A DNA stretch of 21,740 nt from positions 1 to 21,740 of IMG/VR virus record IMGVR_UViG_2124908038_000005; one strand, written 5' to 3'. A model generated the notes under the pieces. It did not search any database. It was not told the DNA's origin and saw only the letters and a program-made list of their open reading frames with translations. The position numbers and the translations under genes were made by a program. Positions 11,737 to 20,121 of this stretch are shown one piece after another. The stretch's first letter is position 1. The number at the start of each line of letters is the position of its first letter. Source of the stretch: a virus.

Positions 11737-12456
11737 ATGGAACCAAGAATATTAGGAGAAAACACCGTAGGATTGCATAACGCCGATCTTGAGAAATCAA
11801 TTGAAAGGGTAGATAAATCTAAGATGTATGAAGATCTTTCAACCATTATAATATGTCCTACTAGAGGACTATTTCCAACAAGGGTTGTACAGTCTTGGAT
11901 GAAAATGTTAAAACCAATGAATCAACTTGTAGCAGGTCCTATCTTTGCTGAAGCAATGAAAGTAGATGATGCATATAATAGTTTGATTCAGTATATATTA
12001 GATAATCCATATCTAAGTAAGTTTAAATATATTCTTACAATAGAAGAGGATAATTTACCACCACCTGAAGGTCTATTAAAACTATATGAAAGTATAGGAG
12101 AATATGACGTAGTAGGTGGGTTATATTGGCATAAATCAAAGAATGGGTTTCCAATGTTATTTGGTAATCCCGATAAAGGTCCGCTAGATAGTGCTCCTCA
12201 GACTCCCAAAGTAGGGGAAGTACAAAGAGTAAATGCATTAGGAATGGGATTTAATCTATTTAAGTTAGATATGTTTAGAAAGATTTCATCTCCATGGTTT
12301 AAAACAGTTCAATGTGATAATGCAGAAGAAGGTCAAAGTACAATGACTCAAGACTTCTATTTTTATAGAATAGCTGCTGAGCATGGATTTAAATTTGCTT
12401 GTGATAATAGAATTTTAGTAGGACACTTTGATAGTAAAACTGATACGATATACTAG
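11737..12456 (+). CDS. GT-A-fold glycosyltransferase
   Basis: Predicted transferase of a sugar from a nucleotide-sugar donor. After about 35 N-terminal residues comes the Rossmann-like first strand STIIICPTRG (35-44). An acidic metal-binding motif in DXD position follows (TIEEDN, acidic residues 103-105), then GGLYW (117-121), the acceptor-side segment LGMGFNLFK (168-176), TQDFYFY (204-210) with a likely catalytic acid, and a final GH (229-230) that often supplies a metal-binding His. At 239 residues it is a minimal GT-A domain without a membrane anchor, so soluble. It starts 17 bases after the terminator. It ends at TAG; one codon later the methyltransferase begins in the same frame. Acceptor unknown: host glycan, virion protein or phage DNA are all open. 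Confidence 0.75.
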   Translation: MEPRILGENTVGLHNADLEKSIERVDKSKMYEDLSTIIICPTRGLFPTRVVQSWMKMLKPMNQLVAGPIFAEAMKVDDAYNSLIQYILDNPYLSKFKYILTIEEDNLPPPEGLLKLYESIGEYDVVGGLYWHKSKNGFPMLFGNPDKGPLDSAPQTPKVGEVQRVNALGMGFNLFKLDMFRKISSPWFKTVQCDNAEEGQSTMTQDFYFYRIAAEHGFKFACDNRILVGHFDSKTDTIY

Positions 12457-12459
12457 ATT

Positions 12460-13005
12460 ATGGTAAATGAATTAAAATTAGATCTCTGTTGTGGAGATAA
12501 TAAAAGAGAAGGATTCTTTGGAATAGATATAGCCCAAACTATTTCAACAGATTGTGTAATGGATCTAACTAAATATTCTTGGGATATTGCTAGTGAAAGT
12601 GCAGATGAGATACACTGTTCTCATTATGTAGAACATATACCACATGATATAAATAACCCAAATGATAAAAGAGATGGGTTTATTCAATTTATGGATGAAG
12701 TATATCGAATACTTAAACCAGGAGGTAAAGTACATATTATATGTCCTTATTACACTTCTATTAGGGCATTCGGAGATCCTACACATGTAAGATACATTGG
12801 TGAATGGTCATTCTATTATTTTAATAAAGAATGGCTAACAGTAAACAAACTAAACCATTATAATATTAATTCTAATTTTGATATGAAGTTTTCATATTAT
12901 ATTAATAATGAATTAACACTAAAATCAGAGGAAGTTAGAAATGAAGCTTTTAAACATGATTGGAATGTTATAGATGATTTGATAGTAGACCTCGTAAAAA
13001 TTTAA
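12460..13005 (+). CDS. Class I SAM-dependent methyltransferase
   Basis: Predicted methyltransferase with a Rossmann-like fold. Motif I is LDLCCGD (7-13), a variant of the usual acidic-Gly-x-Gly loop in which two Cys precede the Gly. GIDI (21-24) carries the acid at the end of strand 2. YVEHIP (56-61) resembles the post-strand-4 motif of the Methyltransf_11 group, and LKPGGKVHI (85-93) is the characteristic segment before strand 5. At 181 residues the C-terminal part is short but still plausible. No target-recognition domain or DNA-methylase NPPY/DPPY motif is seen, so a small molecule, sugar or protein target is more likely than DNA. It sits 3 bases after the glycosyltransferase stop and in its frame, suggesting coupled translation and a joint pathway. 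Confidence 0.78.
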   Translation: MVNELKLDLCCGDNKREGFFGIDIAQTISTDCVMDLTKYSWDIASESADEIHCSHYVEHIPHDINNPNDKRDGFIQFMDEVYRILKPGGKVHIICPYYTSIRAFGDPTHVRYIGEWSFYYFNKEWLTVNKLNHYNINSNFDMKFSYYINNELTLKSEEVRNEAFKHDWNVIDDLIVDLVKI

Positions 13006-15642: not shown

Positions 15643-18600
15643 ATGGCTGTAATATCATTTCCATTAGGATTTAAAATAGTAGAAACATTAGGTACTGCTA
15701 ATACAGGAGTTCCTATAGATGAAAGATTGGTATTTTCATCTAGTTCAGTTAGAACTGTATACGATCCTGATTTCTTTTATGAAGGGCTATTTTCATATGT
15801 AGTAGGACTTCCTTATCATGGTAGTGGAGTAACTAGTGATGCTGGATTCTACTATAGAAATAGTGCTAATACATGGGTTGGTTTAAATGCCGATACTGTA
15901 GATGACAAGCAAGCTAATGGAACTATGGATAGTTCTAGTGCTGCTAGTAGTAATCCTACAACAGGTACTAATATAGTAAATCATATAAACTACTTATATA
16001 CTCTATCTGCTGCATCAAGTTCAGGTAGAACATGGAAATCAGCAGTTACAACATTTGCAGATTTAGCTACTACATACCCTACTCCATCAGTTGGATGGGC
16101 TGCTGTAGTAAATGCTACTAATATAATCTATATATGGAATGGTTCAGCATGGGTTGCAACAAGTAGTAATTCTCCTTCATTATCATCATCTGTAGATGGT
16201 ATTGTAAGTCATACATGGTACACTACTATAAATGATATTATAACTAATACTTCTAATTATCAGAATCAGAATACTTTCAGTAATATATCAGTTAAGAATA
16301 ATAGTGTAGATGCTTTAGGATCTCCTGTAAGTTCTACTACAACTACTGATACATTCACTATAAATGCTACTGGAGGATTAACTGCTATAGTTAGCGGTAA
16401 AGCTATAACATTAAATAGTACTTCTACTTCTGGAGTAACTCCTACAGATTTTACATTTAAGTTTGATACAGGTAGTAATTACTATAGACCTTATACTGAT
16501 AAAACTGAAGCTGGAGGAGCTGCAAGTGCAGGTAAATTTTATAATGGGACGTCTACTCCTACTGCTACAAATCGTTTAAATTATGATGGTAATTTATTTG
16601 CTAATACGTTAACTGGATTAAATTCTGGGATAGGGGCAGCTATTACTGCTACTTCTACTAGTGGAGCTGGAGTTCAGATATTTGCAGATTCAGGTACTTC
16701 TATCATAGCAAATTCAAATACAGGGTTAGGATTATTAATAAACAATACATCCGGTAATACATCATTACTAATAGATGCACAAGTAAATAATGTAGATAAA
16801 TTCACAGTAAGTGCCACTGGAGATATAAACTCATTAGTATTAAACACATCAGGATCTACTCAAACTGCAGGTTTCTTTTATACTGGAACAACTGACCCTA
16901 ATGCATCACACACTAATAGATTGAATTATGACGGTTATTTATATAGCAATGCATTCATAACATCATTATCATCTGGAGCTAGAACTACTATTACTTCTGA
17001 TGGAATGTTAGTGGCAGAAAGTGCTGGAGTAACTAATAGTTCTATATCAGCAGCTTTATATGAACAAACTGTAAATAGTGTCAGTAGAACAACTTTAAAT
17101 CCATTAGTTGTAGGTACAGGTTCTATAGCATATCTATTTGATACTGCTAATGTATTAACTACATCTCTTAGAGCTCAATTTTTAAATAAGGGTAGTAATC
17201 CTACAAATATATTAGCAGATGGATCAATAGATATACCTGCTAGTACTACATATAAGATAGGAGGAGTACCATTAATTGGCATACCTACATTAACAGCAGG
17301 GTCAGTAATATTTAGTAATGGGACTACATTAGCAGAAAATAATGCTAATTTCTTTTGGGATGATACAGCAATAGCTTTAAAAATTAGTAATACTATCGGA
17401 CAAACTCTTATACAAGGAGGTAGTATTACAATTTACGCAGATGCTTCTTCAGGAGGAGTTCAATCAACTTATCTTTTAAATGGTAGCACTATAAGTGGTG
17501 ATTCTTATTTATGGGGAATTCAACAGGATTTAGCAGATCAAAAAAGAGGGGGAGATCTACAAATATTTAATTATAATTCTATTAACAATACCTCTATTAG
17601 TGTAGATACTATTTCAGATAATATTTATTTGAATACTTTTGACTCAAATAGTAATTCTGTAGGTAAGAAAATATATGTACAGTATTCAACTACTGATTTA
17701 AAAGGAGGAGATTTTTCTTTAACTGCTGGGAGCACATTAAATTATTTAGATCCAACATTTACTTCTTTAGGAGCTACTTCTCAAAATTGGGTTTTTATGT
17801 GTGTAGCTCCGAATGGAGATGTGTATGCTACTAAAGGAACTGGTGATATATACATGCAATCTGGAGGAGTAGGAACATTTAATGCTTTAAGCCAAACTAG
17901 TAGAAATTGGCAAGGTATATGTGCTACACCTAGTGGTGATATATATGCAATAGTTTCTAGTGGAGATCTTTATAAAAGAACTGGAGGTACTGGAAATTTT
18001 GTTGGACTATCTCAAACTTCTAGATCTTGGAGAGGACTTGCGTCTGATAGTAGTGGGAATCTTTATGCGACAGTTGCAAATGGTGATATTTATAAAAGAA
18101 CAGGTACTGGTAACTTTACTGCACTTGGGCAAACGTCTAGAAATTGGAATGCTATAACAGTAACTCCTAATGGAGATGTTTATGCAATTACTAGAACTTC
18201 TGGAGGAGAGATATATAAGCAAACTGGAGGTACTGGTAGTTTTGTATCATTAAATCAAAATGGAATACTAAGTAGTACTGCTTGGATTGGAATAGCAGCT
18301 TCTCCTATAGGTAATATATATGCTTTATCAGATGGTATAGATACTTTATATAGCAGTCCTTTATTTGTTCAACCTTTTGGACAAAATGGATTTATTAATA
18401 TACAAGAAAGATATTTACATAATATTACTGTTTTTTACACTTGTGTAACAGTTTCCTCTTCTGGGCTAATTTATATATCATCCTCATTGGCAGGAAATAT
18501 ATATGTAAGTAATTCTACTGATGCTTCTCTAGGTACTTCTAATCTTAATGGAGGATCTTTAATACTATCATCTGGAATGGGTAAAGGTACTGGAAGTAGT

Positions 18601-20121
18601 AATATTATATTTTCTACAGCTACTACCTTATCTTCTGGAACCAATCTTCAGACTATTACAGAAAAAGCAAGAATATTAGGAAATGGTAATTTCGGTATTA
18701 ATACTACAATTCCTGCTTATAGACTAGACGTAAATGGAGATATTAATATATCAACAGGAAGTCATTATAAAATTAATGGAGTTAACCTATCTGCATCTGA
18801 TATAGGATCTTTTGTATTACCTTCATTAACTTCTGGATCTATTTTATTTTCAGATGGAACAACTATTGCGCAGAATAATACAAAATTATTTTGGGATAAT
18901 ACATTTAATAGATTAGGCATAGGAACAAATACTCCTGTATATGATATAACAATTGATGGAAATGCTATATCAGGTAGAAGTATAGGCATGAAACGAGATA
19001 CAGGTACTAGTATTTCTGGAACACAATTAGCTATTTTTGCTGCTGGCGCTGGAACAGGTGCTACTAATAAAGGGGGTGGAACATTATTTTTATCTAGTGG
19101 TATAGGTACTGGAAATTCTAGTTATGCGGCTATTGTATTTAGAGTTTATAATCCAGTAGTATCAGGTACAGGAGATCAGACTCTTTCTTATGCTATGAAT
19201 ATAGCTAATAATGGAAATGTATCATTAGATGCAGGAATAGTTCCGGGATTAATAAATTTTTCTGTTGGTAGAGAATCTGCGAAAATAATGGGGATGGACA
19301 GATCAAATACTACAGGTCATGCTGGAAGTAATCTTACTATAATATCAGGAGGTACACATCCATCTGCTAGTAATTTAAGAGGAGGAACATTAATATTTTC
19401 AGATGGTATAAGTAAAGGTAATTCTACGGGTACATCATTTCAGTGGGTTACTTATGATTCTACAACTTCTGGATCTACTGATCAAACATCTAGTGTTAAG
19501 ATGACTATGCTAAGTAATGGTAATTTAGGAATTGGCAAAGTACCTGGATCGTATCTATTAGATGTTAATGGAGATATAAATATATCTACTGGAAATAATT
19601 TTAAAATAAATGGAACTAATTTAGCTTCATCAGATGTTGGTGCTGAACCAAATCTTGGTACACCTGCTTCTAATGGAATGGTATTAACTTCTACAACTGG
19701 AAATGTTAGATCTTGGATATCAATTACTAAGAATAACTTTAGTTATTATGCTGCTAATCCTGTATATAATTTCTTAAGAAATAATACATATGCTACTGGT
19801 AATGATTTATTACCTTCACCATACTATACTGTTCCTAGAACTGGAACATACATAATTAATTTTGGAGGTATGAATATGGATAATAGCGGTGGATTACTAG
19901 CTGCTACAGAAAATCAATACAGTGTATTTGTAAATAGTACTCAAAATACAAATAGTGTAGCAAGTAGTTATGATGTTAAAGGTAGATTTAGTATGTCAAT
20001 AATAGCATCTTTAACTATAAATGATGTAATACATATTATGTATAGAAGTGCAGATCCTACTAATTTTGGTAATGCTAATTGTACATTCAAAGGATTATAT
20101 GTAACCATAACAGAATTATAA
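15643..20121 (+). CDS. Giant modular tail fibre with inserted beta-propeller
   Basis: 1492-residue adhesion protein, the largest in the window. In order: N-terminal virion-attachment region (1-75); a fibre motif LNADTVDDKQA (about 82-92); a block near 135-180 ending YIWNGSAWV; two NRLNYDG-containing units (around 310 and 427); a shaft repeat near 530-590; six propeller-like units (about 707-958); alternating shaft modules (about 965-1340) with GG(T/S)L and LDVNGDINISTG signatures; and a C-terminal C1q/TNF-like jelly roll (about 1367-1492) with YTVPRTGTYIINF, YSVFVN and a last strand FKGLYVTITEL. No signal peptide, membrane span or obvious glycanase site is visible. It starts 3 bases after the preceding stop. 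Adhesion is inferred from module types; the propeller may bind carbohydrate. Confidence 0.78.
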   Translation: MAVISFPLGFKIVETLGTANTGVPIDERLVFSSSSVRTVYDPDFFYEGLFSYVVGLPYHGSGVTSDAGFYYRNSANTWVGLNADTVDDKQANGTMDSSSAASSNPTTGTNIVNHINYLYTLSAASSSGRTWKSAVTTFADLATTYPTPSVGWAAVVNATNIIYIWNGSAWVATSSNSPSLSSSVDGIVSHTWYTTINDIITNTSNYQNQNTFSNISVKNNSVDALGSPVSSTTTTDTFTINATGGLTAIVSGKAITLNSTSTSGVTPTDFTFKFDTGSNYYRPYTDKTEAGGAASAGKFYNGTSTPTATNRLNYDGNLFANTLTGLNSGIGAAITATSTSGAGVQIFADSGTSIIANSNTGLGLLINNTSGNTSLLIDAQVNNVDKFTVSATGDINSLVLNTSGSTQTAGFFYTGTTDPNASHTNRLNYDGYLYSNAFITSLSSGARTTITSDGMLVAESAGVTNSSISAALYEQTVNSVSRTTLNPLVVGTGSIAYLFDTANVLTTSLRAQFLNKGSNPTNILADGSIDIPASTTYKIGGVPLIGIPTLTAGSVIFSNGTTLAENNANFFWDDTAIALKISNTIGQTLIQGGSITIYADASSGGVQSTYLLNGSTISGDSYLWGIQQDLADQKRGGDLQIFNYNSINNTSISVDTISDNIYLNTFDSNSNSVGKKIYVQYSTTDLKGGDFSLTAGSTLNYLDPTFTSLGATSQNWVFMCVAPNGDVYATKGTGDIYMQSGGVGTFNALSQTSRNWQGICATPSGDIYAIVSSGDLYKRTGGTGNFVGLSQTSRSWRGLASDSSGNLYATVANGDIYKRTGTGNFTALGQTSRNWNAITVTPNGDVYAITRTSGGEIYKQTGGTGSFVSLNQNGILSSTAWIGIAASPIGNIYALSDGIDTLYSSPLFVQPFGQNGFINIQERYLHNITVFYTCVTVSSSGLIYISSSLAGNIYVSNSTDASLGTSNLNGGSLILSSGMGKGTGSSNIIFSTATTLSSGTNLQTITEKARILGNGNFGINTTIPAYRLDVNGDINISTGSHYKINGVNLSASDIGSFVLPSLTSGSILFSDGTTIAQNNTKLFWDNTFNRLGIGTNTPVYDITIDGNAISGRSIGMKRDTGTSISGTQLAIFAAGAGTGATNKGGGTLFLSSGIGTGNSSYAAIVFRVYNPVVSGTGDQTLSYAMNIANNGNVSLDAGIVPGLINFSVGRESAKIMGMDRSNTTGHAGSNLTIISGGTHPSASNLRGGTLIFSDGISKGNSTGTSFQWVTYDSTTSGSTDQTSSVKMTMLSNGNLGIGKVPGSYLLDVNGDINISTGNNFKINGTNLASSDVGAEPNLGTPASNGMVLTSTTGNVRSWISITKNNFSYYAANPVYNFLRNNTYATGNDLLPSPYYTVPRTGTYIINFGGMNMDNSGGLLAATENQYSVFVNSTQNTNSVASSYDVKGRFSMSIIASLTINDVIHIMYRSADPTNFGNANCTFKGLYVTITEL
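16513..16956 (+). repeat. Paired NRLNYDG fibre modules
   Basis: Two copies of a roughly 33-residue unit, at 16513-16611 and 16852-16956, offset by 339 bases. Both carry AG(K/F)FY followed by (N/T)GT, then TNRLNYDG or the same with His-Thr before Asn, and end in a strand with Asn-Ala or Ala-Asn. The intervening sequence is unrelated. Such units are seen as shaft domains in other phage fibres; here they appear to have been duplicated as modules. Confidence 0.7.
17221..19640 (+). repeat. Duplicated shaft modules flanking the propeller
   Basis: A module with IDIP or DINIS, then a (K)I(N/G)G(V/T) turn, occurs at about 17221-17400, 18724-18950 and 19558-19640. The first two copies continue with (L/T)TSGS(I/V)-type and FS(N/D)GTT(L/I)A segments and end near a Phe-Trp-Asp pair. 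A second module with GG(T/S)L(I/F)(L/F)S(S/D)G recurs at about 18541-18690, 18979-19250 and 19276-19560. The two types alternate on the 3' side of the propeller, so the propeller lies between two copies of the first module. Confidence 0.7.
17761..18516 (+). repeat. Six beta-propeller-like repeats within fibre
   Basis: Six consecutive units begin near residues 707, 747, 787, 826, 868 and 918. The first four keep spacing of 39-42 residues and the pattern x-L-x-Q-T-S-R-x-W, then a hydrophobic pair, P/S-x-G-(D/N)-(V/I/L)-YA, then G-(D/E)-(I/L)-Y and TG-Gly/Thr. The last two are longer and degenerate but keep Ile-YA or Ile-Tyr-Ile and Asn-Ile-Tyr. The layout of one Trp and two G-x-(I/V)-Y strands per unit resembles tectonin or similar lectin propellers. 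Confidence 0.75.

Follow-up and report, generated by a model that had tools for sequence, protein, structure and literature searches.

The closest described counterparts of the locus reported here are found among phage receptor-binding proteins and injection-system fibres. In Gp45 of Staphylococcus phage phi11, a propeller lies between the stem and the C-terminal towers and has a cavity into which GlcNAc could fit (PMC4901313). In eCIS fibres, beta-propeller lectins are carried on collagen shafts and C1q domains are found in other fibres (PMC12923769). In crAss001, 12 hubs are present, with a trimeric fibre on each (PMC10172136).

The stretch of DNA analysed here, called the window, is a virus contig of 21,740 bases (IMGVR_UViG_2124908038_000005) that encodes a long fibre-like protein, P0001. 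In our reading, which we consider probable, P0001 carries an NHL/tectonin-like propeller in the loop of a shaft module of a crAss-like fibre, where it would form the side arms of a trimer and bind glycans, a separate contact being made at the tip.

The phage and its fibre genes

As judged from its portal, terminase and capsid proteins, the window phage is a crAss-like phage (Crassvirales). Its portal, its terminase and its major head protein have matches among the PHROG families (phrog_6681, phrog_6547 and phrog_11589), and the best named-phage matches of the portal are crAss-like phages, with about 46-53% identity. The head protein, used as a query, retrieved 64 loci in viral contigs (62-88% identity), and the portal is also present in six of the larger records of these capsid relatives (49-71% identity). 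Slightly upstream of the fibre genes, at 11737-12456 and 12460-13005, lie glycosyltransferase-like and methyltransferase-like genes (phrog_12406 and phrog_5399).

Gene position and weak family matches suggest that P0001 belongs to a virion tail fibre: aa 123-203 weakly match phrog_11315, the other weak PHROG matches are to tail fibre families, and its shaft-like stretches are also found in the fibre ORFs of two relatives, G010 and G011. The N-terminus of the upstream fibre protein P0002 is conserved: the fibre ORFs of G008, G010, G011 and G013 begin with sequences 49-54% identical to it. The anchor-like N-terminus and the shaft stretches are encoded by a single ORF in G010 and G011 and by two genes, P0002 and P0001, in the window, as seen in a comparison with loci L150 and L151. 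Neither P0001 nor its propeller region has a match among named phages, and a search of viral contigs for close relatives of the shaft, the head and one upstream gene found none. The features discussed below are listed in Table 1.

Table 1. Features of the fibre region; positions refer to the window.
Feature	Position (strand)	Residues	Basis
Upstream fibre gene P0002	13612..15639 (+)	675 aa	phrog_9729 and phrog_22284, tail fibre
Fibre-like structural protein P0001	15643..20121 (+)	1,492 aa	Weak PHROG matches; shaft-like stretches common to relatives
Interrupted shaft module, first half	17659..17751 (+)	aa 673-703	HMM from other loci, model positions 8-38
Six-bladed beta-propeller (predicted)	17758..18513 (+)	aa 706-957	Repeats and predicted fold
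Interrupted shaft module, second half	18523..18720 (+)	aa 961-1026	HMM from other loci, E 1.4e-13 in P0001 (model positions 36-100)
Intact shaft module, empty slot counterpart	18973..19218 (+)	aa 1111-1192	HMM from other loci; pairwise score
Intact shaft module, empty slot counterpart	19258..19524 (+)	aa 1206-1294	HMM from other loci; pairwise score
C-terminal head, possibly C1q/TNF-like	19642..20118 (+)	159 aa	Sub-cut-off Pfam match; likeness to L151

A predicted six-bladed propeller

P0001 contains six repeats of about 40 residues (aa 706-748, 749-788, 789-827, 828-868, 869-917 and 918-957), with blade starts at 17758, 17887, 18007, 18124, 18247 and 18394 of the window. The array had been placed at 17761-18516 by the original prediction, which is nearly identical to the stretch matched by a profile of its relatives (17752-18513). 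In pairwise alignments, blades 1-4 score 74-140 against one another, with shuffle maxima of no more than 46, and the scores of blade 5 with these four are 41-54, a level reached in none of 200 shuffles. Blade 6 scores at chance level or lower, with a marginal exception against blades 4 and 5, and a repeat HMM detects five of the six blades in P0001; the sixth is accepted because a blade is present in the structure model and because six repeats are the rule in relatives. By the same HMM, 35 of 56 distinct arrays contain exactly six repeats, and many of those with another number run off the end of a contig, are split, or hold roughly three sets of six. Two loci (L018 and L019) have part-repeats at both ends of the array, which would be expected if paired strands closed the ring. 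The claim of six such repeats is therefore confirmed, for blades 1-5 by scores above the shuffles and for blade 6 through the model and the relatives. The conserved blade positions (R-x-W, G-D-V-Y, G-D-I-Y and G-x-G-x-F) recur throughout the repeats and are structural in character. Pfam also gave short matches to models such as F-box, SSL_N and SPASM, which were judged to be artefacts of the repeats.

AlphaFold2, with an alignment of 24 sequences, yields a six-bladed beta-propeller (pLDDT 88.6, pTM 0.88), and this fold is confidently predicted for aa 706-957. The best Foldseek matches in the PDB are the designed protein Pizza6 and PknD, both of the NHL type, with target TM-scores of 0.81-0.86; about 17-21% of the structurally aligned residues are identical. 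Further matches include NHL domains, lactonases and strictosidine synthase. In the DSSP assignment, a strand at residues 16-18 of the model precedes blade 1, and blade 6 has three strands. A propeller had been proposed from the sequence, with a beta-helix or a shaft continuation named as the result that would speak against it; neither is seen in the confident model, and the proposal withstands this structural test because of the predicted fold, the Foldseek matches and the profile matches to known propellers.

As to the type of propeller, profile searches of the PDB gave PknD as the best match (E 2e-5) and Tectonin 2 as a weaker one (E 0.0034); no profile of the tectonin/tachylectin group exceeds its cut-off. 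The Pfam family Tachylectin falls just under its cut-off (27.3 against 29.8 bits, E 3.6e-6), and NHL scores 17.6 bits against a cut-off of 20. A search of P0001 for the Asp box S-x-D-x-G-x-x-W/F/Y found none, and a sialidase or endosialidase propeller was rejected for this reason. Among the tectonin, sialidase and NHL propellers to which a comparison had been suggested, the NHL-type PknD is thus the best match; the tectonin resemblance first noticed survives in the Tectonin 2 profile match, but the stronger match to PknD, the best folds (Pizza6, PknD and NHL domains) and the sub-cut-off Tachylectin score argue against a strict tectonin assignment.

Insertion into a shaft module

The two intact modules of P0001 align with each other with a score of 151, where shuffles reach at most 68, and the sequence directly C-terminal of the propeller matches the second half of both (scores 104-105, shuffles 64-69). 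The match to the upstream half is short and weak; it is not significant in simple pairwise alignment and becomes weakly significant by profile, with an E of about 8e-4 within this one protein. The flank pattern GRDL..SAGRTINF, propeller, G.PNLDGGTLK.K.GTGKG is present in loci from Flavobacterium genomes and in several phages. A profile made by joining the two flank halves, built from these other loci with the window excluded, matches P0001 as one split module and as two intact modules further on; therefore the propeller fills the loop of a module, and the intact modules represent its empty form. An insertion within the loop of one shaft module is thus supported at the sequence level, the evidence for the upstream half being weaker. 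The original prediction had placed the propeller between copies of the shaft module. That position has to be corrected, since the propeller lies inside a single module, while the insertion itself is supported through the profile from other loci. The entry site is defined by the intact copies in P0001, and the same slot is found in Flavobacterium genomes and in phages. Phage-like proteins of Flavobacterium use this site as well, and it seems to be a standard host-recognition slot that phages have in common.

Whether the insertion is present in related phages, a comparison put forward with the original prediction, was addressed with the capsid relatives: the propeller profile, which detected six of six known positives, found no propeller in their 25 records, most of which are fragments. 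The upstream fibre gene is present in 7 of the 25 records. Because so many of these records are fragments, absence is best shown for G010 and G011, in which the fibre ORFs were read.

The propeller family in other loci

The first search retrieved one locus, in a GC-rich phage, encoding a protein of 253 residues that consists of six such repeats; this protein, used as a query, retrieved 45 viral loci. Bacterial genomes, searched with a profile, added 20 more, of which 10 are from Flavobacterium and several from candidate-phyla MAGs. For an uncultured crAss-like phage, the shared slot would provide a clue to the host, namely Bacteroidota and perhaps Flavobacterium. In some loci the propeller is stand-alone, and in one Flavobacterium fibre-like protein (L054) it is preceded by a collagen-like stretch.

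Several other arrangements were observed. A Phage_nozzle protein (L031:3832-7245) is interrupted by a propeller of this family between profile positions 620 and 654, and in a 1,478-residue protein (L022:4948-9381, and also L023) a six-bladed propeller of the family is accompanied by a crAss muzzle C-terminal domain (Pfam, 1.9e-7). A fibre-like protein of 1,329 residues (L035:2096-6082, in G002) bears three propellers, two of them followed by shaft half-modules like those of the window, and 18 repeats per protein, apparently three consecutive propellers, are found in L024:5236-10083 and L030:4357-7497. At L036:4456-11171, a split-module fibre is followed by ORFs that, by eye and from their first residues, are holin-, endolysin- and integrase-like, so that the locus looks like a prophage. 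Propellers of the family are also found in contigs binned as Nomurabacteria, Parcubacteria, Zambryskibacteria and Saccharibacteria (L049, L052, L056, L061 and L063).

In a tree of the propellers the protein contexts are mixed, with at least three context changes on supported branches; the window copy is placed without support, and the slot-borne propellers are not united. This topology, in which exchange of blades and the register of the repeats could cause distortion, suggests that propellers have been exchanged between protein contexts.

The C-terminal head

The head matches Pfam BclA_C, which we take to be a C1q-like domain, with E 4e-4 and 20.7 bits, below the cut-off of 38. A domain similar to it, with 28% identity, ends the fibre ORF L151 of G011. 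Searches with a two-row profile of the head gave no PDB match, those of PHROG and NCBIfam were empty or weak, and AlphaFold2 on the two-sequence alignment reached a pLDDT of 34.9. The C1q-like head of the original prediction is accordingly kept as no more than plausible, in view of the BclA_C match, which is below cut-off, and of the low pLDDT. This reading is reasonable because C1q-like domains have been reported in cryoconite phages as variable putative receptor-binding parts (PMC7468147).

Proposed function

The last blade of such propellers is where the N- and C-terminal strands come together; the two ends are therefore adjacent, and the domain can be inserted into a loop with the shaft left undisturbed. 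If the P0001 fibre is a trimer, three propellers would project sideways from each shaft. Each of them could bind a surface glycan of a Bacteroidota host, with the binding sites on one face or between blades. The virion would be kept reversibly attached by many weak contacts, and either the C-terminal head or the tip of the tail would make a second contact. Since blades 5 and 6 have diverged, the propeller may bind a target other than that of its relatives, or nothing.

Among the possible roles, reversible glycan binding appears the most likely, an enzymatic or a structural role being less likely. A depolymerase-like enzyme that cuts or modifies host surface polysaccharide is an improbable reading, for which it may be said that phage endosialidases use propellers and that lactonases and strictosidine synthase are among the Foldseek matches. 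Six-bladed propellers are also among the predicted depolymerase folds of Klebsiella phages (PMC11448410). The lack of an Asp box in P0001 counts against it, as do the conserved positions, which are repeat-wide rather than gathered in a single catalytic site, and the fact that no enzyme family scores above its cut-off apart from the short SSL_N repeat model.

Hardly stronger is the case for a structural role, in which the propeller would space or stabilise the fibre or touch an adjacent virion protein, like the seven-bladed nozzle and muzzle propellers. Those of the SU10 nozzle and the crAss001 muzzle are structural (PMC9509320, PMC10172136), and a propeller of the present family is inserted in the nozzle protein L031; however, the propeller was not found in the capsid-relative records and so is apparently dispensable for fibre assembly, its plug-in position beside intact modules does not suit such a role, and the same domain is also stand-alone. 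That the repeats merely continue the shaft as a beta-helix or beta-prism, without closing, is very improbable: the weakness of blade 6 would agree with it, but the confident model with target TM-scores above 0.8 to six-bladed propellers, the six-repeat rule and the two loci with part-repeats at both ends speak against it.

Beyond glycan-binding side arms in this one fibre, the module loop might be a general slot in which Bacteroidota phages exchange propellers, and perhaps other binders, as side-arm receptors independent of the tip, an extension that we regard as tentative. If it is true, host recognition could change by side-arm swaps with the tip unchanged, and if the slot takes different binders, there would be a concrete rule, open to testing, by which fibres acquire receptors on their side arms.

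Comparison with known systems

The propeller lectins Tectonin 2 (PDB 5fsb) and tachylectin-2 resemble the P0001 array in their short Trp-containing repeats; unlike it, they are stand-alone lectins, and the profile match is weaker than to PknD. The PknD sensor domain and Pizza6, its best structural and profile matches, are non-viral and without a fibre context. The SU10 and T7 nozzles and the crAss001 muzzle likewise contain propellers in tail proteins, crAss001 belonging to the same order as the window phage, but these have seven blades and are located in the tail channel instead of a fibre (PMC9509320, PMC10172136). The eCIS tail fibres, like P0001, join propellers or C1q domains to shafts; they belong to contractile injection systems, and a propeller inside a shaft module is not described in the available part of that account (PMC12923769).

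Gp45 of phi11 shares with P0001 a fibre-like organisation, trimeric there, with a mid-protein propeller, C-terminal domains and a proposed glycan site in the propeller; it differs in having five blades, a helical stem and a propeller that follows the line of the chain instead of filling the loop of a repeated module (PMC4901313). Gp45 is not among the matches of the propeller sequence profile; of the known receptor-binding proteins, it comes closest as an earlier example in which a propeller is the proposed site of glycan binding. The supposition that few fibres have two such binding domains has to be set against the mid-protein propeller and distal domains of Gp45 (PMC4901313) and against the eCIS fibres, in which propellers are combined with shafts and distal domains (PMC12923769). 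P0001 is a variant of a known theme because propeller-bearing receptor-binding proteins and injection-system fibres have been published. In the literature covered by our partial search, no account was found of this propeller family or of a shared slot; propellers in phage receptor-binding proteins being already known, the new point is the shared insertion slot.
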